Shown one piece after another: positions 1-25,903 of a stretch of 25,903 nucleotides of DNA; position 1 is the first letter of the stretch, and every line of letters begins with the position of its first letter. A program made the translations under genes and the position numbers. This stretch comes from a virus. The notes under the pieces are model-generated. The model had not been told where the DNA came from, ran no database searches, and was given only the letters and a program-made list of their open reading frames with translations. The DNA lies in the IMG/VR virus record IMGVR_UViG_3300027977_002751, positions 1 through 25,903 of that record, one strand, 5' to 3'.

Positions 1-551
1 TCCTCATACTTGGGTACAAATTGTTTGATGATGTAATAAAGGTTCTTAAAATCAGGAACTTGATTGATATCTCGCACATTTTTTTTGTTAAGGGAAACCT
101 TGCTTTTGTTTTTATCGTAAATTTTCAAATCGCTGTTCAATTTATAAAGATCCTCGTTCATGAATCGTTTCAGGTCATTTAATGTTTTTCCAGCACCTTC
201 ACCTTTTTCATCAAATATTTTTAAAAATGTTTTTAATATCCAATCACTGTATTGACCAGCATATCCTGCTCCTTTTTCCATGTCCACTTTGCTGAAAGGA
301 TCTGCTCCTATCAGATTGTCCATGGTTTCACTCAGAAACTCCAAATAAGCTTTGTATTTGGAATTGGTTTCTGTTCCTTTTTTAAAATCTTCGTAACTGC
401 TGGGCAGGTTGCTTTCATCGGGCCATATGTGCAAAAGCTTGGCGTAAAATAATGGAACATACTTGTTTTTTAGAAAATCCAGACGATCCACATTTTCCCT
501 CAAAACATTACGTTCATAGCTTTCCCGTATGTTTTGCAAATCTTTTCTCAT
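1..551 (-). CDS. Partial hypothetical protein, C-terminus beyond the left edge
   Basis: An open frame starts at ATG 551 on the minus strand, reads MRKDLQNIRESYERNVLREN, and stays open for about 183 codons to the window edge, so only the N-terminal part is visible. I do not recognise the family. It is a soluble-looking, charged, mostly helical sequence with no signal peptide, membrane segment or clear catalytic motif. The start is well supported: a perfect T4-type late promoter TATAAATA lies nine bases upstream on the same strand (561-568). A late promoter suggests a virion or assembly protein rather than early metabolism, but that is inference. It is divergent from the AAA+ ATPase gene at 753. 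Confidence 0.75.
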   Translation of the reverse strand, partial: MRKDLQNIRESYERNVLRENVDRLDFLKNKYVPLFYAKLLHIWPDESNLPSSYEDFKKGTETNSKYKAYLEFLSETMDNLIGADPFSKVDMEKGAGYAGQYSDWILKTFLKIFDEKGEGAGKTLNDLKRFMNEDLYKLNSDLKIYDKNKSKVSLNKKNVRDINQVPDFKNLYYIIKQFVPKYE

Positions 552-560
552 ACTTGTTAT

Positions 561-568
561 TATTTATA
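561..568 (-). promoter_or_regulatory. Late promoter motif TATAAATA
   Basis: The minus strand reads TATAAATA, identical to the T4 late promoter consensus, ending nine bases before the ATG at 551. With T4 geometry the transcript would carry a leader of about four bases. Confidence 0.7.
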
Positions 569-608
569 AAATTACAGCTTTGTCAATGCTAAAGACTAGG
601 TTGCATGC

Positions 609-626
609 TGCCTGCAGCTGCAGGCA
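609..626. repeat. Perfect 18-bp palindrome
   Basis: TGCCTGCAGCTGCAGGCA equals its own reverse complement. As RNA it could form a GC-rich hairpin with almost no loop. As DNA it could be a protein-binding site or a cruciform. It lies between two divergent late promoters, where a terminator for either gene is not expected. Confidence 0.8.
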
Positions 627-639
627 AAAATGCGGTGTT

Positions 640-664
640 GGGCATGGTGGTGGCATCCATGCCC
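640..664. repeat. Inverted repeat with 7-bp arms
   Basis: GGGCATG (640-646) pairs with CATGCCC (658-664) across an 11-base loop, followed on the plus strand by the T-rich stretch TTATTCTTT. It could act as a weak terminator for transcripts entering from the left on the plus strand, or be a structural or binding element. Confidence 0.55.
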
Positions 665-739
665 TTATTCTTTACAAAATACTTAAATGGCACAATTTTG
701 CGTTTCTTTTTTGACTTTTTCACACATCTATTTACAATG

Positions 740-747
740 GCTAAATA
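740..747 (+). promoter_or_regulatory. Late promoter-like motif GCTAAATA
   Basis: The TAAATA core ends five bases before the ATG at 753. With T4 late-promoter spacing the first transcribed base would be the A of the start codon. Confidence 0.55.
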
Positions 748-752
748 CAGTT

Positions 753-1886
753 ATGTCAGAATCTTACCAACCATATTCACGCAGCAATTCTGGTTATAAT
801 CCATTTAATATGTTTTATTACTATACATATAGATTCAAAGTGCAGCCATTGGTTTTTAAACTGAACAACATATTGGTGGATGAAACCATTGTTGAAAAAT
901 TAGAAAAGAAAAAAGCTGAAAAAATATTCGATAGTAAAATGGATTATCGCAGCAAAAAAAATGATAAAAGGGACATTTTCACAACCCAGATTTATTATGT
1001 GTACAAAGATGCATTGGTTTGTTTGGATTGCACAAAAGATGATGATGATGATTTTATATCTTCAACTGCAAACAATGAAACGTTTGAGGAAAAGATGCAG
1101 AACAAAAGTTTTTGGGTGCAGATTTTATATACGGACACCACTACATTGGAAGAAATTAGAGGAATGTTTGAATACAAAGAAAATATTAAAAAAGGAAATG
1201 TGTTTTTAATTTGTCAGGATGGAATTGAAGGAACATATTTGAAAAAATTTGATATTAAACTTCCAAACCATGATATTGATATTGAATTGAACTATGGAAA
1301 AGAATTTGTAAAAAAATATGATAATATTTTGCAAAAATTAAGAAATGATAAAAAATCAGGATTGATATTGTTTTCTGGTGTTCCAGGAAGCGGTAAAACA
1401 ACCATTGTTAAAAATTTGGCAATGAATATTGATAAAAAAATAATTTTTGTTCCACCTGGCACTGTGGATGTTATCACAACACCTGGATTTTTGAATTTTA
1501 TGCTGGATCATAAAAACAGTATTTTGCTTATTGAAGATGCTGAAAAAGTGATACGGAGCAGGGAAGGTGAAGGCAGCAATCCTGAAGGAGTAAGCAACAT
1601 TTTGAATCTTACAGATGGTTTTCTTGGAGATTGCTTAAATCTCTTTATCATAGCAACTTTCAATACACCCCGTGAAAAGATAGACAAAGCTCTTATCCGA
1701 AAAGGTCGTCTTGTGGCAGAACATCATTTTGATGAATTAACAGCAGATCAAGCCAATATTATTTTGAAAAAAATAGGAAGCAAAAGAAAAGCTGATAAGA
1801 ACATGACTCTTGCCGAAATATATAATGAAGAGGGCGGTATGGAAGAAAATTCACAAGAAAAAGAAAAGAAAAGGATTGGTTTTTAA
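753..1886 (+). CDS. AAA+ ATPase
   Basis: A 377-residue protein with a C-terminal AAA+ module. Visible motifs: Walker A GVPGSGKTT at residues 209-217, Walker B ILLIED at 257-262, a sensor-1-like segment FIIATFNTP, and an arginine-finger-like LIRKGRL. Such modules use ATP hydrolysis to remodel proteins or nucleoprotein complexes; the BCS1/FtsH-like layout of one domain after a long N-terminal region fits a substrate-specific unfoldase or chaperone. The first 200 residues match nothing I recognise. The tail is lysine- and glutamate-rich. The frame is open upstream to an ATG at 687, but I chose 753 because a TAAATA motif ends five bases before it and the extra 22 residues would be encoded across that promoter. 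It lies just upstream of the fibre array, so a role in fibre or virion assembly is possible but unproven. Confidence 0.85.
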   Translation: MSESYQPYSRSNSGYNPFNMFYYYTYRFKVQPLVFKLNNILVDETIVEKLEKKKAEKIFDSKMDYRSKKNDKRDIFTTQIYYVYKDALVCLDCTKDDDDDFISSTANNETFEEKMQNKSFWVQILYTDTTTLEEIRGMFEYKENIKKGNVFLICQDGIEGTYLKKFDIKLPNHDIDIELNYGKEFVKKYDNILQKLRNDKKSGLILFSGVPGSGKTTIVKNLAMNIDKKIIFVPPGTVDVITTPGFLNFMLDHKNSILLIEDAEKVIRSREGEGSNPEGVSNILNLTDGFLGDCLNLFIIATFNTPREKIDKALIRKGRLVAEHHFDELTADQANIILKKIGSKRKADKNMTLAEIYNEEGGMEENSQEKEKKRIGF

Positions 1887-1908
1887 TCTAAAATAACCCT
1901 TCGTTTTG

Positions 1909-1916
1909 TGTAAATA
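1909..1916 (+). promoter_or_regulatory. Late promoter-like motif TGTAAATA
   Basis: The TAAATA core ends seven bases before the ATG of the first fibre gene (1924). No Shine-Dalgarno sequence lies between them. Confidence 0.55.
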
Positions 1917-1923
1917 TTAGTTA

Positions 1924-3918
1924 ATGGCGCTCAAGAATTTTACACAATTTAGCCCCCAAATAGTATTATCCGCAACTGACTTTTTGGTGGGATATCGCAA
2001 TCTGGATGAAATACGCACAGATCTGGATAGCATGTCGTTGGGTGTTAGTGCTCTGCTCATCAGCAAGGGCTTTCTGCCTGGAACAACATTAGGAAGCATA
2101 AAAAGAAAAAGTTTTCAATATACCATTGTTCCGGGCAACAATCTGAACGCAGTTAGTGGCACAGACGACTACGGAAACATTTTAAGTTATACAGTCAATC
2201 AAGTGGAAGTGTATCGGAACGGTTCTCATTTGGTTAATAGCCAAGATTATTTGGCCAATAACAGCACACAGATACTGAATCTGAGCACACTTAATTTTGG
2301 AGATATCGTGCAAGTGGTGGGACTTAGTGGAATTGGCGTAACACAACAAAATACGTTGAGCGGATTTTTAGGCAATTTGGTTCAAACAAATTTCCGTTAT
2401 AGTGTGGCTAGTAGCAACACTATCACACCCGGCAGCACTGTTATCAGTGGATCTGATGATTATGGAGCTGTTCTTAGTTTCAAAACAAATGCTTTTGAAG
2501 TTTATCTGAACGGATCTCATTTGGTGCGAGATTATGATTATACTTCCTATAATCTAGGAACAAGTTTCACATTAGCATCTCCTGTATCAAATGGTGACAG
2601 TGTGAACGTGGTTTCATTAAGTTCGGTCACAACATCACAATTGAGTTCAATCAGTGCATTTAGTGGAATCAGCAAAATACTAGCAGGAGATAGAACCGCA
2701 ATTTCCTCTTCTACTGGAAATGTCACAGTATCTTCACAAACATGTATTAGTGATATTCTTGTTCCAAGTTGGACAAATGCTAATCATATTTCACAATTCA
2801 GCTTGCTACAAGATTATCTATCAGCAGTTGCTGCATCTAATACAAGTGCGGCCAGTGCAGTTTATATATCATATTTTGGAGCAAGTACTTATGGCGGAGG
2901 ATCGTCCCAAGTCACAGCTCAGGGAATATTAGGTCCGAATGGAAAGATATATTGCATGTCAGGGGATACAGATCAACCTGTTTTGGTTATCAATCCAGAT
3001 GATTTGACCATATCTAGCATTGCTCCAATAGGGGGAACACTTAACCGGAGAGAAAATGCGACAGGGTCGCTTGCCCCAAATGGAAAAATATATGAAGTTC
3101 CTGGAGGTATGTTTGCGGGTGTTATAAATAATACTTTTCGTTTCATAGATCCAAGCACAGGAACACGATCTGTATTTGCAACCGTGCCAGCCGTTAATCC
3201 CGGGGTAGACACTCCTTTAAGTAACTCCGTTGTGGCACCTGACGGAAAAATACATATGATAGCTAGTGAAATTAGTTTGAATTTTGTTGTGGATCCGTAT
3301 AGCAATGCAATTTCCAGTTATGTTTTGAATAGTGTACCTCCTCGTGTTAGAGGTATTCTTGCTCCTAATGGAAAAATTTACTGTTTGCCTACAACATATT
3401 CCACAATCTTTATTGTGGATCCTTCCAACAATGCAGTATCATCAATAAGCACATTTGTGCAAGGTGGAAATGGTATTGATAATCTTAGTCAAATTTCTTG
3501 TTTGGCACCCAATGGAAATATATATTTTGGATTGGGTGAAGGAAGTAAACGATTGTATGTTTTGGATCCTTCAAACAATTCGGTAACATCTTTTGGAACT
3601 TTTGCAGATAGTTATGGGAGTTCTACATTATGTCCCAATGGAAAAATTTATTGTTTACCAACAGCAAGTGTTAACACTACTTCGTTGCTTTGTATCGACC
3701 CTCAAACAAACACAACTACTGAAATAGGTGGTTTTACTTTTGTAGCTACTCTATATAGTGGCATATTTGCATCTAATTCTAAACAAACAAGACTTATAAT
3801 AAATAATAGCGGATATTTTAACACACCTTCAAACGCACATATATGTGTTGATATACCCACAAACAATAATTGGAACATGAATGTTTCCACCAATCCTCTG
3901 TTTAACAATCAAGACTAA
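1924..3918 (+). CDS. Tail fibre 1 (type A), C-terminal seven-repeat propeller
   Basis: A 664-residue putative tail fibre or receptor-binding protein. Residues 1-50 form a conserved N-terminal end (MALKNFTQFS) shared with the fibres at 3971 and 6432, probably the virion-attachment part. Two copies of a repeat module follow, at about 62-136 and 156-235, each with a V(E)VYxNGSHLV core then a D-Y pair, a pattern common in phage tail fibres. A linker around VPSWTNANHIS leads to seven repeats from about residue 330, each centred on a PNGKIY-like strand and a (I/V)(D/N)P loop; the seventh is degenerate (ASNSKQTRL). This predicts a seven-bladed beta-propeller. The C-terminal cap reads NNNWNMNVSTNPLFNNQD. 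The final residues differ from the other fibres, and a relic of an alternative 3' end lies just downstream. The function as a fibre is inferred from the modules and the neighbouring chaperone-like gene. Confidence 0.8.
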   Translation: MALKNFTQFSPQIVLSATDFLVGYRNLDEIRTDLDSMSLGVSALLISKGFLPGTTLGSIKRKSFQYTIVPGNNLNAVSGTDDYGNILSYTVNQVEVYRNGSHLVNSQDYLANNSTQILNLSTLNFGDIVQVVGLSGIGVTQQNTLSGFLGNLVQTNFRYSVASSNTITPGSTVISGSDDYGAVLSFKTNAFEVYLNGSHLVRDYDYTSYNLGTSFTLASPVSNGDSVNVVSLSSVTTSQLSSISAFSGISKILAGDRTAISSSTGNVTVSSQTCISDILVPSWTNANHISQFSLLQDYLSAVAASNTSAASAVYISYFGASTYGGGSSQVTAQGILGPNGKIYCMSGDTDQPVLVINPDDLTISSIAPIGGTLNRRENATGSLAPNGKIYEVPGGMFAGVINNTFRFIDPSTGTRSVFATVPAVNPGVDTPLSNSVVAPDGKIHMIASEISLNFVVDPYSNAISSYVLNSVPPRVRGILAPNGKIYCLPTTYSTIFIVDPSNNAVSSISTFVQGGNGIDNLSQISCLAPNGNIYFGLGEGSKRLYVLDPSNNSVTSFGTFADSYGSSTLCPNGKIYCLPTASVNTTSLLCIDPQTNTTTEIGGFTFVATLYSGIFASNSKQTRLIINNSGYFNTPSNAHICVDIPTNNNWNMNVSTNPLFNNQD

Positions 3919-3920
3919 AT

Positions 3921-3953
3921 ATTTGCACCAACCCTTTCTTTAACAAATATTAA
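3921..3953 (+). pseudogene. Relic of a fibre gene 3' end
   Basis: Just after the stop of the first fibre gene, the bases read in frame ICTNPFFNKY then stop. This matches the C-terminal cap of the other fibres (for example NVCTNPMFNK and NVATNPFFNK). It lies in a different frame from the upstream gene and has no start codon. The 15 bases 3933-3947 are identical to 8358-8372 at the end of the third type A fibre. It is best explained as a leftover from recombination or duplication among the fibre genes. Confidence 0.7.
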
Positions 3954-3954
3954 A

Positions 3955-3962
3955 GATAAATA
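3955..3962 (+). promoter_or_regulatory. Late promoter-like motif GATAAATA
   Basis: Matches seven of eight positions of TATAAATA and ends eight bases before the ATG at 3971. Confidence 0.6.
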
Positions 3963-3970
3963 ATAACAAA

Positions 3971-5944
3971 ATGGCACTTAAAAATTTCACACAATTTACT
4001 CCTCAAACGGTTCTTAGCGGGACTGATAACTTTGTGGGTTATAGAGTTTTAGACGAAATTCGTTCAGATCTGAGCAGCGTTACAGATGCCATCAGTGGTT
4101 TGCTTCTTAGCAAAGGTTTTGTTCCGGGCAGCAGCGAGGGTGTTGTAAGAAAAGTAAGTTTTCGATACACTTTAACATCGGGCAGTTCACTTAATGCAGT
4201 TAGCGGTGCAGATGATTATGGATTAGTGCTTAGTTACACACCCACTCAGGTCGAGGTTTATCGGAACGGAGCATATTTGGCAGAATCATTGGATTTTGTT
4301 GCAAATAACGGAACTCAAATTACCAATCTGAGCACAATGAATGTGGGAGATATTGTGGAAGTGGTTGCACTCAGTTCCACACGTTTGACTTTGGCTAGTG
4401 GGTTTGGCACCGGAGACGTATCAAAAATAAATTATCGTTATAGTGTGGCCACAGGCAACACGATTGAACCAGGCGACACACTGATCACAGGAAATGATGA
4501 TTTTGGATTCGGCTTAAGTTTCGTGTCGCCCAATCTGGATGTTTACTTGAACGGTTCACATTTGGTTCGAGATATGGATTATGGTTCGTATGGGAGTGGA
4601 AATTCATTAATACTAAATGATGCAGTTGCAGATGGTGACACTGTGGAAGTGGTCAGTCTCAGTGCAAACAATCTGACACAAGTTGTGGGCATCACCGCAT
4701 ATAAAGGAATTCAACAAATACAAGCAGGCAAAGACTTTTTCATTTCTAATATTACTGGAACAGGAATTGTCACACTTTCAGCAAAACCCGGAATCAGAGA
4801 TATTAAAGTTCCTGATTGGACCACGGGTGCACATATAACTAATTTTAGCACTTTGCAACAATATCTTAGTGCGGTAGCACAAAGCAATAGATTCACTCAA
4901 CCTAGTGCAGTTTACATGGAAATTTTCGCCACAAATGCATATCCTGTTGAAGCAGGAACACAGAATTGGGAAGGGGGAGTTTTACATCCCAATGGAAAAA
5001 TATATTGTTTTCCGGAAAATGCATCAGTAATTCTTATTATTGATCCTGATTCCAATACAACAACAACAACAGGGGCAGGATCCTTTGGAACAGTTGGAAA
5101 CAAGTATCAAGGTAGCATATTAGCTCCAAATGGAAAAATATATGGAGTTCCTTGTGGAAGTGGTACAACATCTAGACCTCAAACAGTTTTTCAATTATTG
5201 GATCCGTCAAATAATACAATAACAGCTTATGCAAGCATAGCTTCTCTTCCTCCAACAAATGCATTTCAGGGAGGTGTATGTGCTCCTAATGGAAAATTAT
5301 ATTTAACTCCTTCAACCAGTTCAATTTTTTATTTTATTGATCCTTCTAACAATACTGTCAGTGCATTTGCCACATATGTTACAAATTCCTCAATTTTTGG
5401 ACAAAATTATAGTTTTGGATGTGTTGGTCCTAACGGAAAAATATATATATCACCTACAGGAGCAACCGTGGGGCGCATTATTGATCCAGATACTAATACA
5501 ATAACAACTTTTGGAATAACAGGACAGAGTCTACCTAATTTGGGTGCAGGAATTGTTGCTCCTAATGGAAAAATTTATTTCGTACCAAATCATAGTATAG
5601 GATATATTTTAGATCCTTTTAATAACAATACAATTTCAACATATTCATGTGCTCCAGTTATAACAGGAGCTACTTCCTCTTTCGGAGGAAGGTTGGCACC
5701 AAATGGTAAAATATATTTTGCATCATGGGCCGGAACATTTTTTGGCATGCTTGATCCAGACAACAATACTGTAACACAATTAGGAACAGTAGCTTCAGTA
5801 GGCTATCTTGGCATGGTTCTTACACCGAAAGGAAAACTTGTTCTTATACCAGCAGCAGCAACAAGCATTACAGCTTATAATTTAAATTTAAATAATAATT
5901 TTAACATAAACGTTTGCACCAACCCAATGTTTAACAAAATTTAA
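3971..5944 (+). CDS. Tail fibre 2 (type A), C-terminal seven-repeat propeller
   Basis: A 657-residue paralogue of the fibre at 1924 with the same architecture: an N-terminal end starting MALKNFTQFT, two YxNG repeat modules, a linker with VPDWTTGAHIT, and seven propeller-type repeats from about residue 330 (cores include HPNGKIYCFP, APNGKIYGVP, APNGKLYLTP, GPNGKIYISP, APNGKIYFVP and APNGKIYFAS, with TPKGKLVLIP last). It ends with NVCTNPMFNKI. The linker closely resembles that of the type B fibre at 8426, although the N-terminal halves of the two proteins are unrelated, so the propeller and linker appear to move as a unit. It probably forms a receptor-binding fibre or fibre tip. A role as a lactonase-type enzyme is not supported by any visible active-site pattern. 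Confidence 0.8.
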   Translation: MALKNFTQFTPQTVLSGTDNFVGYRVLDEIRSDLSSVTDAISGLLLSKGFVPGSSEGVVRKVSFRYTLTSGSSLNAVSGADDYGLVLSYTPTQVEVYRNGAYLAESLDFVANNGTQITNLSTMNVGDIVEVVALSSTRLTLASGFGTGDVSKINYRYSVATGNTIEPGDTLITGNDDFGFGLSFVSPNLDVYLNGSHLVRDMDYGSYGSGNSLILNDAVADGDTVEVVSLSANNLTQVVGITAYKGIQQIQAGKDFFISNITGTGIVTLSAKPGIRDIKVPDWTTGAHITNFSTLQQYLSAVAQSNRFTQPSAVYMEIFATNAYPVEAGTQNWEGGVLHPNGKIYCFPENASVILIIDPDSNTTTTTGAGSFGTVGNKYQGSILAPNGKIYGVPCGSGTTSRPQTVFQLLDPSNNTITAYASIASLPPTNAFQGGVCAPNGKLYLTPSTSSIFYFIDPSNNTVSAFATYVTNSSIFGQNYSFGCVGPNGKIYISPTGATVGRIIDPDTNTITTFGITGQSLPNLGAGIVAPNGKIYFVPNHSIGYILDPFNNNTISTYSCAPVITGATSSFGGRLAPNGKIYFASWAGTFFGMLDPDNNTVTQLGTVASVGYLGMVLTPKGKLVLIPAAATSITAYNLNLNNNFNINVCTNPMFNKI

Positions 5945-5972
5945 ATAATAAACATAAATATTAATCAACAAA

Positions 5973-5980
5973 GATAAATA
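5973..5980 (+). promoter_or_regulatory. Late promoter-like motif GATAAATA
   Basis: Ends ten bases before the ATG at 5991. A second copy, CATAAATA, lies at 5953-5960. Confidence 0.55.
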
Positions 5981-5990
5981 AATATATTAT

Positions 5991-6368
5991 ATGACAACTT
6001 ATATTGATTACGGAAGCTATTATGAAACGGGTGATGTGGTGGTTTGCCGCATGGGTAAAAATCAACCTTATAATCCTTTTGGCGGAGCGCAGATCACATG
6101 GGAACAGTATGTAAATCAACAGGTTGCAGCAGGAACAGCTCAAGTTGTGCAACTAATTAATGATCCCACTCGTCTTGCCGCTTATTGGAGCGATGTGATT
6201 ACCAAACGAAATGGTCTTCTTGTGGATAGCGATTGGACACAACTGCGAGATGTAACTCTTTCTGACAACACACAATGGACAACTTATCGTCAGCAACTTC
6301 GCGATATTCCGCAAACATATGCAAGTGATCCTCGCTTGATTGTTTGGCCCACTGCTCCAACAGCTTAA
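5991..6368 (+). CDS. Tail fibre assembly chaperone-like protein
   Basis: A 125-residue protein. Its C-terminal half carries the pattern typical of phage tail assembly chaperone proteins: an arginine/asparagine-containing helix, then LLVDSDWTQLRDVTLSDN, then a WTTYRQQLRDIP segment and a proline-rich end (IVWPTAPTA). Proteins with this R...LL..SDWTQ...W..YRQ.LRD.P signature are usually encoded next to tail fibre genes and help the fibres fold or attach. Its position between the second and third type A fibres fits. The N-terminal part (MTTYIDYGSYYETGDVVV) is not familiar. A single such gene may serve the whole array. Confidence is high for the family and moderate for the exact client. Confidence 0.78.
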   Translation: MTTYIDYGSYYETGDVVVCRMGKNQPYNPFGGAQITWEQYVNQQVAAGTAQVVQLINDPTRLAAYWSDVITKRNGLLVDSDWTQLRDVTLSDNTQWTTYRQQLRDIPQTYASDPRLIVWPTAPTA

Positions 6369-6391
6369 AATATTTTTTATTAATAAAACAT

Positions 6392-6408
6392 CACCAGTTT
6401 TCTTGGTG
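6392..6408. terminator. Possible weak terminator hairpin
   Basis: CACCA (6392-6396) pairs with TGGTG (6404-6408) around a seven-base loop, followed by five T (6411-6415). The stem is short, so only partial termination after the chaperone-like gene is likely. The T run leads directly into the next late promoter motif. Confidence 0.35.
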
Positions 6409-6415
6409 CATTTTT

Positions 6416-6423
6416 AATAAATA
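6416..6423 (+). promoter_or_regulatory. Late promoter-like motif AATAAATA
   Basis: Seven of eight matches to TATAAATA, ending eight bases before the ATG at 6432. Confidence 0.6.
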
Positions 6424-6431
6424 ATACAAGA

Positions 6432-8378: not shown

Positions 8379-8411
8379 CATGAAAAAAGATTCTCAACAT
8401 TCTGAAACGGG

Positions 8412-8419
8412 GGTAAATA
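8412..8419 (+). promoter_or_regulatory. Late promoter-like motif GGTAAATA
   Basis: The TAAATA core ends six bases before the ATG at 8426. Confidence 0.5.
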
Positions 8420-8425
8420 ACTAAT

Positions 8426-9712
8426 ATGCCGACGCGAGCACTATCTGGAGCCCGAATGGTACGTGATTTGGGTGTAACCAATGAATTTTTAGCAGCCAAT
8501 GTTGCATCTGCCACCAAAATACAACAGGTACCTAGTGACAGGTTTATAAGCAGGGGACTTGCTAACACTAGTACAGGCAATGTTCAAGGAGAACAGCCGT
8601 GGTATGATGTGCAGGTGCCAGATTGGACTACGGGTGCACACATAACCAACTCGAGCACTTTGCAACGTTATCTGAGCAGTGTGGCGGAGACCAATAGTCT
8701 TGTTCCGGCCAGCGATGGTTTTGTTGAAAGGTTTGGAACTTTTCCAGGAAGTGCTGGTTTTTTTGGAGGTGTATTAGCTCCTAATGGAAAAATATATTGT
8801 GTTCCTCACGGAACAACTTATTGTGCAGTCATCGATCCTATTAATAATTCTGTATCATCAATAGGTAATGGTTTGTTTCCAATGGTAAATCCTGCTCTTG
8901 GTTCATATGCAGGAGGTGTTTTGGCTGCAAATGGAAAAATATATCTTGTTCCAAGCAATCAAACTACTATGCGGGTAATTGATCCGTCTAGTAACACAGT
9001 TTCGAGTATTAATAATATAAAAACAGCTTATGATTCAGGTGTGTATCATCCTAATGGAAAAATTTATATGAGTCCATGGAGCACAGCAACTCAATTTTTG
9101 ATTGTTGATACCTTTAATAATGATTCCATAAGCTATACTTCAAATATACCAGTTAGAAACGGTAGAACTGGAACGAGTGTTGCTCCCAATGGTTTTATAT
9201 ATTCGAATGGGTCAACCATTATTTCAAAAATAGATCCATCTAATGACACAGTTACTAATATTATTAGTATTACACAGGGGGGAATGAGTGACACCCTTGT
9301 TCTGGCACCAAATGGAAAATTTTATAATTATAATTATGCCAGAACATGTATTACTGTGTTAGATCCTTCGAATGATACATTAATTACCTTTCAAACACCC
9401 GATCCAAGCATATTATCAGACGGATATGTTTTAGCTCCCAACGGAAAAATATATTTCGTACCGAACAGAGGATTACACAATCAAACTGTCATGACATTTA
9501 TTGATCCAAATAATAATACTTTAGGAACTTGCGTAAATCTTAGCAATCTTACATTGGGAACGGAGGCATATGAAGGAGGAATTGTGGCACCTAATGGGAA
9601 AATGTATTTTATTCCTTTTGCAGCAACCAGTGTTTTGTGTTTTAATTTTTTAAACAATAACAATTGGAACATAAATATATGCACCAATCCAATGTTTAAT
9701 AAGGGAATTTAA
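8426..9712 (+). CDS. Tail fibre 4 (type B, short N-terminus), seven-repeat propeller
   Basis: A 428-residue protein with a different N-terminal end from type A. Residues 1-45 (MPTRALSGARMVRDLGVTNE...KIQQVPSDRFISRG) follow a pattern common in phage fibres: a G-V-T segment, a K-I segment, then F(I/L)xR and a GTG or TGN turn. The linker VPDWTTGAHIT resembles that of the type A fibre at 3971. Seven propeller-type repeats start near residue 113 (APNGKIYCVP first, APNGKMYFIP last), and the cap reads NNNWNINICTNPMFNKGI. The protein is essentially a type A fibre without the two YxNG modules and with another attachment end, so it may join a different virion site or form a shorter fibre. The start is supported by the TAAATA motif six bases upstream. 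Confidence 0.8.
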   Translation: MPTRALSGARMVRDLGVTNEFLAANVASATKIQQVPSDRFISRGLANTSTGNVQGEQPWYDVQVPDWTTGAHITNSSTLQRYLSSVAETNSLVPASDGFVERFGTFPGSAGFFGGVLAPNGKIYCVPHGTTYCAVIDPINNSVSSIGNGLFPMVNPALGSYAGGVLAANGKIYLVPSNQTTMRVIDPSSNTVSSINNIKTAYDSGVYHPNGKIYMSPWSTATQFLIVDTFNNDSISYTSNIPVRNGRTGTSVAPNGFIYSNGSTIISKIDPSNDTVTNIISITQGGMSDTLVLAPNGKFYNYNYARTCITVLDPSNDTLITFQTPDPSILSDGYVLAPNGKIYFVPNRGLHNQTVMTFIDPNNNTLGTCVNLSNLTLGTEAYEGGIVAPNGKMYFIPFAATSVLCFNFLNNNNWNINICTNPMFNKGI

Positions 9713-9715
9713 ATA
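9708..9715 (+). promoter_or_regulatory. Late promoter-like motif TTTAAATA
   Basis: Overlaps the stop codon of the preceding fibre gene (9710-9712) and ends five bases before the ATG at 9721. Confidence 0.5.
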
Positions 9716-9720
9716 AAACC

Positions 9721-11013: not shown

Positions 11014-11019
11014 TAAATA
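11012..11019 (+). promoter_or_regulatory. Late promoter-like motif AATAAATA
   Basis: Overlaps the end of the preceding gene and ends five bases before the ATG at 11025. Confidence 0.55.
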
Positions 11020-11024
11020 CTCCT

Positions 11025-17334: not shown

Positions 17335-17342
17335 TATTTAAA
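17335..17342 (-). promoter_or_regulatory. Late promoter-like motif TTTAAATA for the glycosyltransferase operon
   Basis: On the minus strand TTTAAATA ends eight bases before the ATG at 17326. It is the only such motif found at the head of the four overlapping genes. Confidence 0.5.
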
Positions 17343-18787: not shown

Positions 18788-18795
18788 TATTTATT
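18788..18795 (-). promoter_or_regulatory. Late promoter-like motif AATAAATA
   Basis: On the minus strand it ends five bases before the ATG at 18782. It stands back to back with the plus-strand motif at 18801-18808; the two start codons are only 34 bases apart. Confidence 0.55.
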
Positions 18796-18816: not shown

Positions 18817-19176
18817 ATGTTTAATGAAGATACACAAATGATTTATAACCGATGGGTATCTGGAATAGCCACTAGGGAGCTTAAAGGACAAACACTTACA
18901 GTAGATGATTTGATTAAAAAATTTAGTCCAGAAGGAGCAACTTTAGCTCCTAAAATATTACCATATCCTTTGGATAAGATTTTTGAAAGTTTGGCGGATA
19001 ATTTTGTAAAATTAAGTGGAAGTAAAATGATATGCGAAACAAGCAAGAATAACCCCCTTATAGGCAACAAGAAAGAGAAATTAGCACAACTGGAACAAGT
19101 CATATCCAAGATCAATCAGGCACAAAAGATACTTGAAGAAACAATAGACCCTCTAAATAAAATTTTAGAGGGATAA
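18817..19176 (+). CDS. Hypothetical protein
   Basis: A 119-residue protein beginning MFNEDTQMIYNRWVSG. I do not recognise it. The C-terminal third is a predicted coiled or long helix (KLAQLEQVISKINQAQKILE). The frame is open further upstream, but the GATAAATA motif places the start here. Its last codons form the left arm of a hairpin that covers the ribosome-binding region of the next gene (19178), so its translation could affect that gene by melting the hairpin. Confidence 0.65.
   Translation: MFNEDTQMIYNRWVSGIATRELKGQTLTVDDLIKKFSPEGATLAPKILPYPLDKIFESLADNFVKLSGSKMICETSKNNPLIGNKKEKLAQLEQVISKINQAQKILEETIDPLNKILEG
19149..19172 (+). promoter_or_regulatory. Hairpin hiding a ribosome-binding site, with embedded late-promoter motif
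   Basis: CCCTCTAAA (19149-19157) pairs perfectly with TTTAGAGGG (19164-19172) around the loop TAAAAT. The right arm contains AGAGGG, the only good Shine-Dalgarno-like site near the ATG at 19178. The left arm and loop contain TCTAAATA (19152-19159), a late-promoter-like motif. A transcript starting about six bases after that motif would lack the left arm and leave the site free. Confidence 0.6.
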
Positions 19177-19177
19177 A

Positions 19178-20628: not shown

Positions 20629-21374
20629 GTGCCATACACACTATCATTACTGGTTCCTGAATAATCGAAAACAAACCGTTTAGTAACTTCTTGAGCACTA
20701 TTTCCTAGTGTTTCAGGACGAGGATTATCTGGTTGTTTTCCACTAAGTGTGGCAGACAGTGTTCCATATCCGGTATTGTCCATGACTTGTAAGTTTCCTT
20801 CTTCATTTGGAAGATTAACCTCCTCGCTATAATCAAAACGTTTCAGTTTCAAAAACCAAAGATAATGGCCAGCCAAAGGATTGATGGTGTTATTTTCGCT
20901 TTCTAACCGTTGAGTCACTTCAAATAATTTTCCGTCTCTATCGCCTGGACGATCATTACCATATTCAGTTAATTTTATAATATCTCCGCTTTTCGGTTCT
21001 TGACCATTACCAAACACGTAATAAAAACTGCTTATGGCAACTGTTGCGGTCATATAGTCTTGGGCATCAAAACCAAATCGATTGATTGTAAGGTTATCCT
21101 CGTCCAATTTTATGCCCATTATGATTGATTTGGGTTGGGGCCAGTTTCTTGTAGGGTCTTCTCCGTATATATTGTCCGCACTTAATGTGCTGTAAGGATT
21201 TTGCCAATAATCAACTTTTTGACCAAAAAGATCAATTTGTTCTCTTAATTGATTGCCAATAACATCCCGTTCACATTCATTGTTTTGTTTATCGGTAAAG
21301 CGCAAAACGCTTGGTGTATATGCCAAAGGATATACAGAAACACATCCTGGACCTAAATAACGATCAACACTCAT
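20604..21374 (-). CDS. 14: Neck protein gp14-like (head completion)
   Basis: A 256-residue protein, the length I recall for T4 gp14. The order of features fits the T4 neck protein family: REQIDLFGQKVDYWQNPYS near the N-terminus, an EDPTRNW segment, a long beta-rich middle with RFGFDAQDYMTATVAISS, PKSGDIIKLTE, then a KLFEVTQ...LAGHYLWFLKLKRFDYS region. In T4, gp13 and gp14 close the filled head and form the site where the tail joins. The ATG overlaps the TAA of the upstream nucleotidyltransferase gene (TAATG), so the two are translationally coupled. The C-terminal extension, rich in Gly, Asn and Thr, is less familiar. No gp13-like gene is visible in this window. Confidence 0.78.
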   Translation of the reverse strand: MSVDRYLGPGCVSVYPLAYTPSVLRFTDKQNNECERDVIGNQLREQIDLFGQKVDYWQNPYSTLSADNIYGEDPTRNWPQPKSIIMGIKLDEDNLTINRFGFDAQDYMTATVAISSFYYVFGNGQEPKSGDIIKLTEYGNDRPGDRDGKLFEVTQRLESENNTINPLAGHYLWFLKLKRFDYSEEVNLPNEEGNLQVMDNTGYGTLSATLSGKQPDNPRPETLGNSAQEVTKRFVFDYSGTSNDSVYGTYDVHTDT

Positions 21375-22417
21375 TAGCTCTCCAATACATATATATTATT
21401 CTTTTTTCTTATACTTACAGGAGATCTTCCTAGTTTCGTGGGGTTTTCACTTAAAATTATGTTATAAAATGCAGCAATTTGCATCGCTCTAGGTTCGCTC
21501 ACAATCTTTCTACCTTTGGATTTTTTAAGCATTCCTACTTCAGGAAATGTGTCTAAATTTTGATGCATTTTGGGTACTGTTCTCACATGTTTACGTGTTC
21601 CAGGATCACGGATTATTGGTTTCATATGACGAGGATCTTTTGTTTTCTTTTGTTTGCCCATCAGATCTGTCATGAAAAGAGCAGGCAAACCACTGTTCCA
21701 TGTTTGTTCAGTGAATATTTTATCAAATGTTTCAATTTTCAAATCATTCAACTTATCCAGATATCCTGCATCCCGTAGTTTTTTAAAAACTAGATTTTCC
21801 ACGCAATAATCAAAACCTTTTTCATCGTTCATGCATTCTTTTCTTGCTTCAGATAATTTTGTTTTTATATTTTTTGCACGATGAAGAATTGATTTTAATT
21901 TCGATTTATTTGTTGTTTTATTTTTTTCTTTTATTAAAAAATCTATTTCATTTCGGAAAAAATTATATTTTTTATACACATTCTGTTCATCAATTTGGGG
22001 AGGGTTGAATATAGGTTTTTTGATCCATTCATTTTTTAAAACACTATATACACTTCTGGTTTTATGTGGCTGTATGTTTGTATCTTCCACAAATATTTCA
22101 ACAGGATGATTTTTAATTAATATGTCATGTTTCAAACGCCATTTATATGCTTCTCCATCAAAAGCCAAGAAAACTAAATTTTTTTCTGGATTTACTTTAT
22201 TGAAATCTATTCGTAAATGCAAATCCAAATCACTTTTTTTAGTATAATTGTAATTTGTTATACTTCCTGTTATTTGTATATCTTCCAAAGGTGCTTTTGT
22301 TTTTAAACTACCATAAAAATCAAGTGCAATATCCACAAGTTTGTTTCTAGTATTTTTGTCAAATTTTTCATTTTTCCAAAATTTTTCATTTAGGGTTTTA
22401 TGATATTCAAATGGCAT
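21374..22417 (-). CDS. Nucleotidyltransferase-fold protein
   Basis: A 347-residue protein with an N-terminal polymerase-beta-type nucleotidyltransferase signature: ITGSITNYNYTKKSDLDLHL, where G51-S52 and the D63-x-D65 pair are the expected nucleotide- and metal-binding residues, with a later VEIFVED supplying a possible third acidic residue. A lysine-rich helical middle and a basic C-terminal segment (RHMKPIIRDPGTRKHVRTVP) could bind nucleic acid. Family members transfer nucleotides to RNA, proteins or small molecules; the target here is unknown. It sits in a structural-gene block, directly upstream of and coupled to the gp14-like gene, so it may be packaged or act in late infection. The ACTAAATA motif five bases upstream fixes the start. 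Confidence 0.75.
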   Translation of the reverse strand: MPFEYHKTLNEKFWKNEKFDKNTRNKLVDIALDFYGSLKTKAPLEDIQITGSITNYNYTKKSDLDLHLRIDFNKVNPEKNLVFLAFDGEAYKWRLKHDILIKNHPVEIFVEDTNIQPHKTRSVYSVLKNEWIKKPIFNPPQIDEQNVYKKYNFFRNEIDFLIKEKNKTTNKSKLKSILHRAKNIKTKLSEARKECMNDEKGFDYCVENLVFKKLRDAGYLDKLNDLKIETFDKIFTEQTWNSGLPALFMTDLMGKQKKTKDPRHMKPIIRDPGTRKHVRTVPKMHQNLDTFPEVGMLKKSKGRKIVSEPRAMQIAAFYNIILSENPTKLGRSPVSIRKKNNIYVLES

Positions 22418-22422: not shown

Positions 22423-22430
22423 TATTTAGT
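22423..22430 (-). promoter_or_regulatory. Late promoter-like motif ACTAAATA
   Basis: On the minus strand it ends five bases before the ATG at 22417 and begins one base after the T run of the terminator at 22432-22461. Confidence 0.55.
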
Positions 22431-22431: not shown

Positions 22432-22461
22432 AAAAAAAAACCCCCGTCTATTAAACGGGGG
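22432..22461 (-). terminator. Strong intrinsic terminator
   Basis: CCCCCGT (22441-22447) pairs with ACGGGGG (22455-22461) around a seven-base loop, and the stem can extend by A-T pairs on each side. On the minus strand it is followed by nine T, ideal for ending the transcript of the acidic protein gene (22482-23093). On the plus strand the hairpin is followed by TTTTCTTTATAATTTTTTT, so it may work both ways. Confidence 0.85.
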
Positions 22462-22481
22462 TTTTCTTTATAATTTTTTTA

Positions 22482-23093
22482 TCAGTTGGCTTGAAAAAGG
22501 TCTTGATCACCTTTTCCACCACCCTTGACCACTCCGGAAACGACGTTGGATTTTCCTTTTGTGCTTGTGGGTGCTCCACCTTTTACGCCACTACCAACAA
22601 GTGCATGGCCCCTTTCGCCTTCGGTGCCTACCTTGTCAGTTACTTTGGCATCTCCACCCTTACCATTTTTGGCAAGATTGGAAACTGTACTGGCAACTTT
22701 GTTGCTGCCAGATGAAACTTTCGAGAGTTCTTGACCTTTTTTAGCATTAACGAGTGCATGGCCAATTTCTTCAGATTCGATTTCTTCTGTGGTAATTTCT
22801 TCATTGTCTTCAGACGGCATCATCTGTTCATAATCTTCATCGCCAGCATTTTCGTCTTCGCCAACAGCTTCACCATCTTCTTCACCGTCACTTTGATCGG
22901 GAATAAGATCGAGGCTTTGTAGTTTTTGCAGAAGCTCAATAGCTTTTGCGAGATGCTCTTTGGGAGTCAACTCTGTTTCTTCGCTAGCGGCTGCCGGGGC
23001 GACATCGGCCATGCCAGGTTGAGCACCAGTGATACCAAGTTCAACGTCGTCCTCGGACATCACGGCTTCATATAGTTTATCGAAGTTACTCAT
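22482..23093 (-). CDS. Acidic low-complexity protein, possible head core protein
   Basis: A 203-residue protein with three zones: an N-terminal region (MSNFDKLYEAVMSEDDVELG) with a helical segment KEHLAKAIELLQKLQSLDL, a very acidic Glu/Asp middle at about residues 68-108, and a Gly/Lys/Ser-rich tail. In the tail GHALV occurs twice, each time followed by a lysine/serine stretch, suggesting internal duplication. Its base composition is more GC-rich than its neighbours. Acidic low-complexity proteins next to packaging genes are often prohead core, scaffold or DNA-mimic internal proteins, but I cannot name a family. It has its own AATAAATA motif and the only strong terminator in the window, suggesting abundant late expression as a single-gene unit. 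Confidence 0.7.
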   Translation of the reverse strand: MSNFDKLYEAVMSEDDVELGITGAQPGMADVAPAAASEETELTPKEHLAKAIELLQKLQSLDLIPDQSDGEEDGEAVGEDENAGDEDYEQMMPSEDNEEITTEEIESEEIGHALVNAKKGQELSKVSSGSNKVASTVSNLAKNGKGGDAKVTDKVGTEGERGHALVGSGVKGGAPTSTKGKSNVVSGVVKGGGKGDQDLFQAN

Positions 23094-23098
23094 ATAGA

Positions 23099-23701
23099 TT
23101 ATTTATTGTTATCCTTTCTATTTTTTGTATTTTTATTTACAAAACTAAAAAATTCTTCAAGTGCTTCAGTTTGACCATTCACTGCAGCAATTGTAAGAAG
23201 ATTAATAAAATTATCTTTACCCCATATTGTTTTATATTCGCAAAGGCGTTCATAAGCTTCGTTTTTATCTTCTTTTGTAAGTTCCATAGTGATAAGAGAT
23301 ACGTTTTTATCATTAATTATGCTTTCATTAGCAGAACTGAGTTCTTCTGGATTAAAATAGTTATTTTTGCGAAACTTATTTTCTTTTGCATCAATAGGTT
23401 CGGCCAATTGTTTCAAATCAGGACCGCTATCTTTATGTGCAAAATCTTTTAATTTTGGATTCAAATCAGGTTTTTTATCTTTTACAAGCTCCAAAGATAT
23501 TCCACCTTTTCCTGGTTTTGTACCAAATTTGGCTTTGGGATCCGCAAGCTTTTTGGTCTTTTTTTCTTCAATAACTGCTTGTTCTTGTTGGGCAGCATTT
23601 TCCAGAAGCATTTTATGATAAACTGCTCCTATATCAACTAATGTATTTGCGTTACTTCTAGGCATACCGTATTTCTTAATATATTTACTCTTTTGATTCA
23701 T
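23099..23701 (-). CDS. Hypothetical charged protein, divergent from terminase
   Basis: A 200-residue lysine/glutamate-rich protein starting MNQKSKYIKKYGMPRSN. The middle (about residues 50-110) looks disordered and is rich in K, P and D; the C-terminal 70 residues look helical (KNEAYERLCEYKTIWGKDNF...). A small terminase subunit (gp16-like) or a head protein is conceivable because of its position beside the large terminase, but no diagnostic motif is visible and this is only a guess. The start is strongly supported by a perfect TATAAATA eight bases upstream. The next gene on the strand follows after five bases. Confidence 0.7.
   Translation of the reverse strand: MNQKSKYIKKYGMPRSNANTLVDIGAVYHKMLLENAAQQEQAVIEEKKTKKLADPKAKFGTKPGKGGISLELVKDKKPDLNPKLKDFAHKDSGPDLKQLAEPIDAKENKFRKNNYFNPEELSSANESIINDKNVSLITMELTKEDKNEAYERLCEYKTIWGKDNFINLLTIAAVNGQTEALEEFFSFVNKNTKNRKDNNK
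23100..23107 (-). promoter_or_regulatory. Late promoter-like motif AATAAATA
   Basis: Lies within the last codons of the 23099-23701 gene and ends six bases before the ATG at 23093. Confidence 0.55.
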
Positions 23702-23709
23702 ACGTTAAG

Positions 23710-23717
23710 TATTTATA
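23710..23717 (-). promoter_or_regulatory. Late promoter motif TATAAATA
   Basis: A perfect match to the T4 late consensus on the minus strand, ending eight bases before the ATG at 23701. Only 20 bases separate the two divergent start codons. No plus-strand TAAATA is present for the terminase. Confidence 0.7.
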
Positions 23718-23721
23718 TCAC

Positions 23722-25386
23722 ATGAAATCAAATGATAGGTATTTGGGCAATCCAAATTTACCCACTTCTCAGGCTGAGTTTGAATATACGCCACAGATGA
23801 TAAAAGAGATGGATAAGTGTAAAAATAATATTCTGCATTTTGCTGAAAATCATTTTTTTATTATTAATTTGGATGTGGGAAGAATAAAAATAAAACTGCA
23901 TCCTTATCAAAAAAGAATTTTAAGAAGTTTACGAGACAATCGTTTTGTTTGTTTGTTATCAAGTCGGCAGGCAGGAAAAACAACCGTCATGACCATTTAT
24001 TGTCTTTGGCTTGCATGTTTTCAAAATGATCAACGCATTCTTCTTGTGGCAAACAAAGAAGAAACAGCAAAAGAAATTTTTTCTCGTGTGCGTCTTGCTT
24101 ACGAAAATCTTCCTAATTTTTTAAAACCAGGTGTGACTGAATATGGAAAAACCGCGATGGGTCTTGCTAATGGAAGCCGAATCAGTATCAGCACCACATC
24201 ATCTGATGCAGGTCGAGGAAGTTCCGTGAATGTATTGGTTATTGACGAGTTGGCTCACATTGACAACAGCATGGTGGAAGCATTCTGGTCTGCTGTTTAT
24301 CCGATTATTTCATCATCTAAACGAAGTAAAATTTTTGTGGCAAGTACACCGAATGGAACAGGAAATCTTTTTTATCAATTGTATACAGACGGAATGGAAG
24401 GAATCAATAATTGGAAAACAGAACGAGTGGATTGGTGGGAAGTTCCTGGACGAGATGACAAATGGAAAGACAGCACAATACGAAGTTTGGGTAGCCGAGA
24501 ACTCTTTGACCAAGAATTTGGAAATGAATTTCTTCAAGAGGGCGAATCAGTATTAAACGGAGACGATTTTGAAAAATATAAAAGTGGGTGTAGTGATCCT
24601 CTTTTTGTTTTTGATGATGGAAAATATAAGATTTGGGAACAACCTCATAAAAATGGAGTATATGTGGCAGGTGTGGATGTGGCAGAGGGTGTTGGTCAAG
24701 CCAGCAGCGTGATTCAGATATTTGATTTGGCAGATCTGTCCTCTATTCGTCAAGTAGCAGTTTACCGAGATAATACCATAACTCCTTATAATTTTACAAT
24801 AAAGCTTTTGGAAATACTCAACCAGTGGGGAAATCCACCATTGCTTATTGAAAGAAATAATTGTGGAGCACAGATAGCTGATTCACTTTTTGAAAATTAT
24901 AATTATGATCCAATGATTAGTTATAGTCATGGTAAAACTTTTGAAAAACCAGGCATATTCACAAATACAAACACAAAATATCATGCTGTTATCAACATGA
25001 GGTATTGGATCAATGAACTGCGATCAATTGTATTTCGAGATGTTGTAACATTGAATGAATTAAAAATTTTCACACGATATCCAAATGGAACTTGGGCTGC
25101 AAGAAAAGGATCAAATAATTTTGATGATTGTGTCATGAGCATGGCCATGGCACTTTTAATTTTAAATGATGATCTTGTTGAAAAATATTATGAAGTTGTT
25201 TCTCGTGATTCAAACAATCGACCCAGTAGTATTATTCCTTTCAAAAAAAATGATAATTTAACATATAAATTTGGAGGCAATGACGATACACTTCCAAACA
25301 TGCCTATTATGTTCGGTTCTCAGGAACAAGATGATAGGGATATGGAAATGGATTATTACAGCAAAGAAGGTTGGAAACTTCTTTAA
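23722..25386 (+). CDS. terL: Terminase large subunit (gp17-like DNA packaging motor)
   Basis: A 554-residue large terminase that pumps DNA into the prohead and cuts the concatemer. ATPase domain: Walker A SSRQAGKTT (80-88), Walker B VIDE (173-176), and a coupling motif ASTPNGTGN. Nuclease domain of the RNase H fold: D319 in AGVDVAEG, E377 in LLIERNNCG and D468/D469 in FDDCVMSMAMAL, the expected acidic triad. Order and length follow T4 gp17, though it is shorter than T4's 610 residues as recalled. The protein looks intact, with no intein or frameshift. The start is 20 bases from the divergent 23099-23701 gene; no ribosome-binding site or late motif is seen on the plus strand, so how it is expressed is unclear. 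Confidence 0.96.
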   Translation: MKSNDRYLGNPNLPTSQAEFEYTPQMIKEMDKCKNNILHFAENHFFIINLDVGRIKIKLHPYQKRILRSLRDNRFVCLLSSRQAGKTTVMTIYCLWLACFQNDQRILLVANKEETAKEIFSRVRLAYENLPNFLKPGVTEYGKTAMGLANGSRISISTTSSDAGRGSSVNVLVIDELAHIDNSMVEAFWSAVYPIISSSKRSKIFVASTPNGTGNLFYQLYTDGMEGINNWKTERVDWWEVPGRDDKWKDSTIRSLGSRELFDQEFGNEFLQEGESVLNGDDFEKYKSGCSDPLFVFDDGKYKIWEQPHKNGVYVAGVDVAEGVGQASSVIQIFDLADLSSIRQVAVYRDNTITPYNFTIKLLEILNQWGNPPLLIERNNCGAQIADSLFENYNYDPMISYSHGKTFEKPGIFTNTNTKYHAVINMRYWINELRSIVFRDVVTLNELKIFTRYPNGTWAARKGSNNFDDCVMSMAMALLILNDDLVEKYYEVVSRDSNNRPSSIIPFKKNDNLTYKFGGNDDTLPNMPIMFGSQEQDDRDMEMDYYSKEGWKLL

Positions 25387-25389
25387 ATA
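25382..25389 (+). promoter_or_regulatory. Late promoter-like motif TTTAAATA
   Basis: Overlaps the terminase stop codon and ends five bases before the ATG at 25395. Confidence 0.55.
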
Positions 25390-25394
25390 CTAAT

Positions 25395-25903
25395 ATGTCA
25401 GGTTTATACAATCAGGCGATGCTTAACAAAACACGTCGCGACAAATTTATCATGGTGGTAAATCCACCAAATATTCTGCGTCCTTATTTGAACCAATATA
25501 CAAGAAATAACAGTGATGTTAATTTGGAAAGTTTTCAGTTTTCTGTTTATGGAATTGTGGTTCCAAGCATGAGTGTTCCAGAAGTGGAAACCAAATATGC
25601 TGGTCAAGTGATGAAGGTAACCAGTTATGAGCGGCCCAGTTATGGAAATGTTGCGGTCAATTTTACAGTGGATAATTTGTACAATAATTATTGGTTTGTA
25701 TATAGTTGGCTTAAAACACTTAATGACAATAAAGCTAGTATTCCTAATGCTAGAAATCGAAATGATGATCCTAAATTAAACGATTATAGCACAACCATAA
25801 CAGTTTATGGATTGGATGAATATAATAATAATAAAATAAAATTTGAATATACAGGGGCCATACCTGTTGAATTGGGGGGTATTAATTACAATTATAGGGA
25901 CAG
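25395..25903 (+). CDS. Probable tail tube protein (gp19-like), cut by the right edge
   Basis: An open frame from ATG 25395 runs 169 codons to the window end. It starts MSGLYNQAMLNKTRRDKFIM and shows features typical of T4-like tail tube proteins: an early R-x-DKF-x3-V-x-PP segment, FQFSVYGIVVPSMSVPEVE, a Y-x-GQ turn, ERPSYGNVAVNFTVDN, WFVYSWLKTLND and a beta-strand TTITVYGLDEYN near the visible end. In T4 the tail tube gene lies shortly after gene 17, which agrees. T4 gp19 is about 163 residues, so this protein is somewhat longer. The sheath gene expected between them is not present at this spot. The assignment rests on motif pattern and position. Confidence 0.65.
   Translation, partial: MSGLYNQAMLNKTRRDKFIMVVNPPNILRPYLNQYTRNNSDVNLESFQFSVYGIVVPSMSVPEVETKYAGQVMKVTSYERPSYGNVAVNFTVDNLYNNYWFVYSWLKTLNDNKASIPNARNRNDDPKLNDYSTTITVYGLDEYNNNKIKFEYTGAIPVELGGINYNYRD

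Follow-up and report, generated by a model that had tools for sequence, protein, structure and literature searches.

A probable T4-type late promoter core set against start codons points to leaderless or near-leaderless mRNAs in an uncultured clade of the T4 superfamily

Introduction

The textbook example of late transcription in phages is T4, whose late mRNAs have leaders with ribosome-binding sites. In T4-type phages late transcription starts about one helical turn from the promoter box, +1 being the sixth base after the box, and the start sites of sigma-70 promoters lie one base further from their box than those of gp55 promoters. Late leaderless transcripts occur in phage phiKZ. Taking the accessible portions of the cited papers as a guide, the T4 late box spans −13 to −6 (PMC2988020), the late promoters of the cyanophages S-PM2, Syn9 and P-SSM2, given as NATAAATA, have the same core motif (PMC2984593), phage transcripts are described as often leaderless in the AR9 paper (PMC5312081), and mycobacterial leaderless mRNAs have ATG or GTG at +1, no Shine-Dalgarno (SD) sequence and a −10 box just upstream (PMC4633059). 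No report of leaderless late mRNAs in T4-like phages was found by title or start of abstract in the open-licence PMC literature. Here we analyze the motif TAAATA, the core of the T4 late box, which lies a few bases before many start codons of an uncultured viral fragment of 25.9 kb (25,903 nt, IMG/VR record IMGVR_UViG_3300027977_002751; hereafter the window, or G000) and of its relatives.

Results

TAAATA precedes most gene starts of the window

The TerL, primase, tail-tube-like and head-closure genes of the window match T4-type families (phrog_2, phrog_45, phrog_679 and phrog_47). With homologous TerL, primase and tail proteins, and a TerL at 31–38% to those of T4-like isolates, the window can be placed in the T4 superfamily. 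Genes were called as the longest ATG frame of at least 70 codons (at least 100 for the Verrucomicrobia-bin sample mentioned below). Exact TAAATA ends 5–9 nt before the ATG (this distance is called the gap) in 15 of the 24 window genes; of 1022 other ATGs only 2 have it there. When the upstream regions were shuffled 2000 times with dinucleotides preserved, motif-bearing starts numbered 0.62 on average and 5 at most. What is notable is the placement and not the abundance of the hexamer, as the window contains 32 copies against a shuffle mean of 40.1. That composition alone makes TAAATA frequent is what speaks for chance, or for an artefact of gene calling in an AT-rich genome; nevertheless, the contrast with the other ATGs, the hexamer ranking in relatives given below and the lack of any copy at gaps 5–8 in T4, itself AT-rich (guanine-cytosine (GC) fraction 0.35), leave this explanation a practically negligible probability, and a chance origin is refuted by the window and hexamer controls.

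The gap is 5 in six window genes (starts 753+, 9721+, 11025+, 18782−, 22417− and 25395+), 6 in three, 7 in one, 8 in four and 9 in one. With a gap of 5, the A of ATG is itself the sixth base after the motif and would be the T4-type +1. Upon applying T4 geometry to all fifteen genes, the predicted leaders are of 0 nt in six, 1 nt in three, 2 nt in one, 3 nt in four and 4 nt in one. An earlier note on this DNA had predicted leaders of about 0–5 bases, with six or more transcripts starting on the A of ATG, which agrees with these values. It had also counted exact TAAATA in 16 of 25 genes at gaps of 5–10; the placement is real, but the refined count is 15 of 24 at gaps of 5–9, TerL (23722+) would be the sixteenth gene on a count that admits its TAAGTA variant, at gap 10. 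Both perfect TATAAATA octamers that it reported, at 561–568 and 23710–23717, were found again, on the minus strand; a third copy (3123–3130) lies within a gene.

Nine window starts lack the motif. Six of these are overlapped by their upstream neighbor, five of them over 1–13 nt, an arrangement that suggests translational coupling. The other three (primase at 17385; 19178, with the SD-like AGAGGG; TerL, with TAAGTA) are not overlapped. The reported absence of SD sequences was borne out: no usable site was found at any of the 15 motif-bearing starts, the single AGGA among them (gene 23093−) being located upstream of that gene's TAAATA.

A one-base edge at gap 5 and the initiator bases

Sixteen loci encode a TerL with 83–100% identity to that of the window, and a 222-kb contig, G001 (TerL 57%), carries T4 core genes that include gp55, uvsW, gp46, gp47 and gp43. 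At gaps 4–10 no hexamer is more enriched than TAAATA in the close relatives (94/235 genes, 96-fold), and in G001 it likewise ranks first near starts (44/258 genes, 35-fold). The genome-wide motif and spacing histogram proposed earlier was run on 124 clade sources, comprising 2012 distinct upstream regions, and on a thinned set of 1774 regions below 80% identity. These analyses, as well as the −35 test described below, cover loci of at least 43.5% TerL identity (L184, L185, L187 and the isolates falling below this value), with whole contigs replacing eight loci; the exceptional loci L190, L296, L182, L287 and L279/G026 were also taken out and hence lie outside the histograms.

In the pooled set the motif is found at gaps 3 and 4 in 9 and 5 genes, at gap 5 in 251, and then in 173, 66 and 64 genes at gaps 6, 7 and 8, with a tail of 52, 53, 31 and 15 at gaps 9 to 12. 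The thinned set retains this one-base cliff (5, 210 and 132 genes at gaps 4, 5 and 6). Of the 251 genes at gap 5, 244 have a pyrimidine directly before the ATG (203/210 in the thinned set); among 1285 motif-less genes the share is 56% (Fisher p 1.5e-45). The sixth base after the motif is a purine in 85% of genes at gap 7, 79% at gap 8, 74% at gaps 9–12 and 62% at gaps 13–25, and a pyrimidine-purine step at +5/+6 from the motif is seen in most gap classes. Phages with long leaders share the purine at +6 (79% of 19 T4 promoters; 78% of 87 in four T4-type phages), their +5 base not being pyrimidine-rich. Open-frame start codons at offset 5 are ATG in 348 cases, GTG in 86 and TTG in 9, GTG numbering 1–13 at the other offsets tested; ATG and GTG are thus enriched and TTG is not, as expected of leaderless mRNAs, which would have ATG or GTG at +1 and leave TTG unused.

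The presence of the motif also varies with gene arrangement. In the long clade contigs it precedes 0.38 of genes with a divergent neighbor, 0.18–0.46 of genes in the co-directional classes without overlap, and 0.03 of those that are overlapped. These data bear on the possibility that the sites are true promoters brought to the ATG by genome compaction alone, functional mRNAs being mostly leadered read-through products and leaderless ones a minority. The genes are indeed packed and co-directional, two window motifs (9710 and 25384) contain the preceding gene's stop codon, and one strong terminator hairpin was noticed in the window (22437–22465). Compaction, however, would neither bar gaps of 3–4 nt nor favor a pyrimidine at −1 or ATG/GTG over TTG at +1; the motif is also frequent where the neighbor is divergent, and T4, without any close box, retains SD sequences at 0.61–0.80 of its non-overlapped genes (0.55 of overlapped ones). 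We consider this explanation unlikely.

Two promoter classes are placed at start codons

We analyzed the 568 thinned TAARTA sites for upstream information. Beyond −7 in the upstream direction, every position stays below 0.08 bits; there is thus no −35 element, as is the case in T4-type late promoters. TATAAT −10 boxes are also placed at start codons in the same genomes. Gap 6 is their mode in G001 (9 of 18 sites, with three each at gaps 5 and 7), where 11 TTG occurrences at spacer 16–17 were counted over the 18 sites. When sites of nine long contigs were pooled, 22 of the 55 had gap 6, 13 gap 5, 11 gap 8 and 9 gap 7, with TTG at spacer 16–18 in 32/55. Taking into account the one-base difference between sigma-70 and gp55 start sites, the mode of 6 for the sigma-70-type box and of 5 for TAAATA both place +1 on the A of ATG. 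A translation signal would hardly account for two promoter classes at the ATG with such a shift. The mode suggested earlier for late promoters is not restricted to late genes, since the early sigma-70-type promoters share the placement at start codons.

With respect to gene classes, the motif was found at 25/57 late homologues and at 1/23 early ones (nrdB of G001), counts in which orthologues of the same gene repeat and are not independent; the labels apply T4 knowledge to HTVC008M homologues, with all non-virion proteins placed in the early class. The motif thus goes with late genes, as T4-type late promoters do. Homologues of gp55 are present in 6/8 long relatives, the two contigs without it being of 76–77 kb and probably partial, and gp45 in 8/8; gp55 of G001 matches phrog_234 at 2.3e-31. 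It could still be argued that the TAAATA sites are extended −10 elements read by the host sigma-70 and unrelated to gp55: a minority of TAARTA sites shows a TTG peak at spacer 16 (39/568, versus 4–20 at other spacers), and the early gene nrdB of G001 carries the motif. Considering that a −35 element is missing overall at these sites and present at the TATAAT sites of the same genomes, that late homologues are enriched and that gp55 is encoded by most long relatives, we regard a reading by host sigma-70 as very improbable indeed.

Shine-Dalgarno sequences are rare, and boxes shift upstream where they occur

SD-like 4-mers are found at 1–5% of clade genes with gap 5–12, in agreement with leaderless mRNAs, which have no SD sequence. 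Eight of the nine long contigs of the clade have them close to background level (0.06–0.15, versus 0.03–0.11 in a shifted window); the ninth contig, G002, shows 0.17 versus 0.05. In 5/6 clade members found, an SD-like leader precedes the major capsid gene, and the sheath and tube genes of G001 show TAAATA, then AGGAAGG or AGGAG, then ATG. The leaderless mode proposed earlier for late mRNAs needs a correction for the major capsid gene, which mostly has an SD leader.

Within the clade, the subgroup formed by L279 and L190/L296 has its motifs mostly further up, many of them 16–18 nt before the ATG, with AGGAG between box and ATG and SD-like sequences at 0.50–0.86 of genes. L182 and L287 look similar (0.50–0.53) and are outside the length limits of the TerL tree described below. 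These five loci, located in or near the clade, apparently represent a reversal to SD leaders. Where a leader with an SD sequence is present, the box is shifted upstream, as expected of a promoter.

The scarcity of SD sequences means that some other initiation signal is needed, and TAAATA might itself serve an SD-poor host as an AT-rich initiation, S1-binding or Kozak-like signal in translation, transcripts starting elsewhere; an AT-rich upstream bias is described for non-SD phyla in the available text of a survey (PMC5397173). Such a signal would not be expected to consist of an exact hexamer with a one-base cliff and a variable distance instead of a fixed position from the ATG. Nor would it be expected to be nearly absent from overlapped genes, which also need initiation, to be replaced in the same place, one base further back, by TATAAT with a proper −35, or to move up in the exceptional subclade with AGGAG between box and ATG. 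We judge a translation signal very unlikely. The cliff, the +5/+6 step, the near absence at overlapped genes, the late bias, the presence of gp55 and gp45 in relatives, the lack of a −35 element and the one-base shift of the sigma-70-type promoters, seven results in all, support the earlier proposal that TAAATA is a promoter.

Sequences labelled near fall on one side of a single branch

A TerL tree was built with sequences of 480–640 aa, which reduced 187 rows to 158; the survey had omitted 15 loci for which a whole contig or an overlapping copy was present. A branch with a Shimodaira-Hasegawa-like approximate likelihood ratio test (SH-aLRT) value of 100, to be read with the quick method and the long branches of this tree in mind, separates 105 rows (79 labelled near, 5 mixed, 2 far and 19 undetermined) from 53 rows (24 far, 2 mixed, 27 undetermined and no near). 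All 79 near rows are thus on one side. Pelagibacter phage HTVC008M, labelled mixed, falls on the far side. Among the best matches listed from 50,697 phage records, no isolate exceeded 38% for TerL or about 34% for DNA polymerase. In the far relatives G009–G011 the commonest start-proximal hexamer is TAAGTA (13/62 genes), the variant that precedes the terminase in the window clade.

Window features and neighboring genes

The sites found in the window are listed in Table 1.

Table 1. TAAATA-type sites and related elements at the gene starts of the window (gap and predicted leader in nt).
Element	Position	Strand	Gene served	Gap	Predicted leader	Remarks
TATAAATA late promoter	561..568	−	3-551 (−)	9	4	
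TAAATA	742..747	+	AAA+ ATPase gene, start 753	5	0	Start is an in-frame ATG within the 687 ORF
TAAATA	1911..1916	+	1924-3918	7		PNGKIY-repeat, fibre-like
TAAATA	3957..3962	+	3971-5944	8		
Overlapping TAAATAAATA	5975..5984	+	5991-6368, tail-fibre-assembly	6 (and 10)		
TAAATA	6418..6423	+	6432-8378	8		
TAAATA	8414..8419	+	8426-9712	6		
TAAATA	9710..9715	+	9721-11013	5		Contains TAA stop of preceding gene
TAAATA	11014..11019	+	11025-12299	5		
TAAATA	17335..17340	−	15812-17326 (−)	8		Heads overlapping-gene operon 17326 to 12296
TAAATA	18788..18793	−	18354-18782 (−)	5		
TAAATA	22423..22428	−	21374-22417 (−)	5		Just after hairpin terminator 22437-22465
TAAATA	23100..23105	−	22482-23093 (−)	6		
TATAAATA late promoter	23710..23717	−	23099-23701 (−)	8		
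Variant TAAGTA	23706..23711	+	TerL, 23722-25386	10		Back to back with minus-strand promoter
TAAATA	25384..25389	+	Tail-tube-like gene, start 25395	5		Contains terminase stop codon
Exception: TAAATA inside hairpin	19149..19177	+	Gene 19178	18		Followed by SD-like AGAGGG

Several arrangements were observed beside these sites. At 19149–19177 the AGAGGG is presented by the same hairpin that holds TAAATA. At 23701–23722 divergent start codons are 20 nt apart, and their overlapping back-to-back late boxes are kept in relatives. The region 1924–12299 encodes six repeat-rich fibre-like proteins with common APNGKIY-type repeats and a similar C-terminus, three of them sharing the N-terminus MALKNFTQF, and each of the six genes has its own late promoter. 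On the minus strand, 12296–17326 is a four-gene operon, some of its products being glycosyltransferase-like, with overlaps of 4–13 nt and one late promoter at its head. In G001, the tmRNA gene (L048:12277-12660) has an unusually long predicted tag.

Host clues

A Bacteroidetes-type host was rejected, gene starts showing no enrichment of its −7 box, TAnnTTTG. Phage S21, looked for as a host marker, was found in none of six clade contigs. The search of genome contigs for a host gave a single match, contig L300 in a Verrucomicrobia bin, whose positions 1–12492 include, at the contig end, a TerL 43% like that of the window. Along this contig GC climbs to about 0.60 from 0.40 in the terminase region, which may reflect misbinning, an insertion or a chimeric sequence. 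The bin itself, sampled over 234 kb, has GC 0.62 and few TATAAT boxes; a pattern count gave a mild excess over control (23 versus 8). G001 carries PSCyt2/PSD1 and DUF1501 genes (49004–51052 and 58513–59781), domains typical of Planctomycetota/Verrucomicrobiota; PSD1 is found in only 1/22 records. In the available text of a 2017 survey, Planctomycetes are listed with phyla in which SD genes are few and a leaderless and/or S1-type bias is seen (PMC5397173).

Discussion

We propose, with a probability of roughly 0.85, that the late and many of the early mRNAs of this T4-superfamily clade are leaderless or near-leaderless, TAAATA being a gp55-type promoter core placed at the ATG. According to this model, which is built on sequence comparison, the core of the T4-type late promoter would have been moved next to the gene, so that a start site six bases after the motif would fall on the A of ATG at gap 5, or 1–4 bases before it at longer gaps. 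The resulting late mRNAs would be recognized by the ribosome through their 5′-terminal AUG or GUG and not through an SD sequence, and translation of the overlapping cistrons further down would depend on coupling. The sigma-70-type promoters of early genes are placed likewise, one base further back in accordance with their geometry. The 5′ ends themselves, the dependence on gp55 and leaderless translation by the host are predictions of the model.

Several observations weigh against it. At gap 6, the second commonest class (173 genes), +6 is a purine in only 49% of genes and +5 in 67%; for these transcripts the start could be at +5 or at the ATG itself. The complete TATAAATA octamer is present in only 2/15 window motifs, and the base before the TAARTA core is A at 54%, versus 65% in T4-types. 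Judging by the small TTG peak at spacer 16, a part of the TAARTA sites could be mixed or sigma-70-like. Calling the longest ATG frame makes some start positions wrong, and read-through from upstream promoters may also yield leadered copies. Finally, the search for gp55- and gp33-like genes recommended in the earlier note succeeded for gp55 in most long relatives, but a family scan identified no gp33 (a 112-aa candidate in G001 has no family match), and gp55 was not found in the 25.9-kb window fragment.

Going one step further, it is probable that a whole uncultivated branch of the T4 superfamily moved both its promoter systems, the sigma-70 type and the gp55 type, onto start codons, most units becoming leaderless and SD-independent; a leader with an SD sequence would persist mainly at the major capsid gene and would have been regained in a small subclade. 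If this is true, a whole virus lineage can rewire its contact with the ribosome while retaining sigma factor and box, and transcription and translation would begin at nearly the same spot, unlike in T4. The tree provides a clean evolutionary contrast, all 79 near rows lying on the same side of a branch, and start sites are predicted to the single base, with HTVC008M and its 11 gap-5 genes as a cultured test case. Gene finding and promoter scanning that presuppose leaders and SD sequences may misplace starts in these phages. The pattern would also hint at hosts whose ribosomes readily accept leaderless mRNA.

When compared with known systems, the clade resembles T4 (gp55-gp33-gp45, Straboviridae), with which it shares the TAAATA core, the lack of a −35 element, the purine at the sixth base, homologues of gp55 and gp45, and late virion genes on both strands. 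It differs in the position of the box, which in T4 (TATAAATA) lies 13–52 nt before the ATG, with SD-like sites in 65% of genes, and in the clade 5–12 nt before it; the contrast with T4 leaders drawn earlier is thereby borne out. The base before the core is also less conserved in the clade, and TAAGTA is used in some relatives. TAAATA peaks 16–40 nt before the ATG in T4, RB49, Syn9 and P-SSM2 (T4 has 20 copies at 21–30 nt), so that the cyanophages Syn9 and P-SSM2 differ from the clade in this respect. At 5–10 nt before the ATG no clear excess over a reversed control was seen in RM378 (13 versus 10), KVP40 (12 versus 9) or S-PM2 (17 versus 18).

Far-T4 phages, uncultivated T4 relatives of freshwater and marine origin that are common in lakes (PMC4360716), resemble the clade as uncultured relatives of T4, a likeness by description only; the words promoter and Shine-Dalgarno are nowhere in the accessible part of that text. 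HTVC008M shares with the clade 11 genes with TAAATA at a gap of exactly 5, several of them annotated as virion proteins, and a pyrimidine at −1 in 10/11; it differs in that only a subset of its genes has gap 5 and SD-like sites are found in 54% of genes. Its divergent gp2/gp4 genes, at 18916(−) and 18943(+), both have TAAATA at gap 5, as do the genes at 19456, 31132, 49760 and 75830. Mycobacterial leaderless mRNAs resemble those proposed here in the ATG-or-GTG rule, the 5′ ends of the clade being predicted from sequence. They come from bacterial genes with sigma-type promoters, whereas the clade would also use the late promoter of a phage sigma factor.

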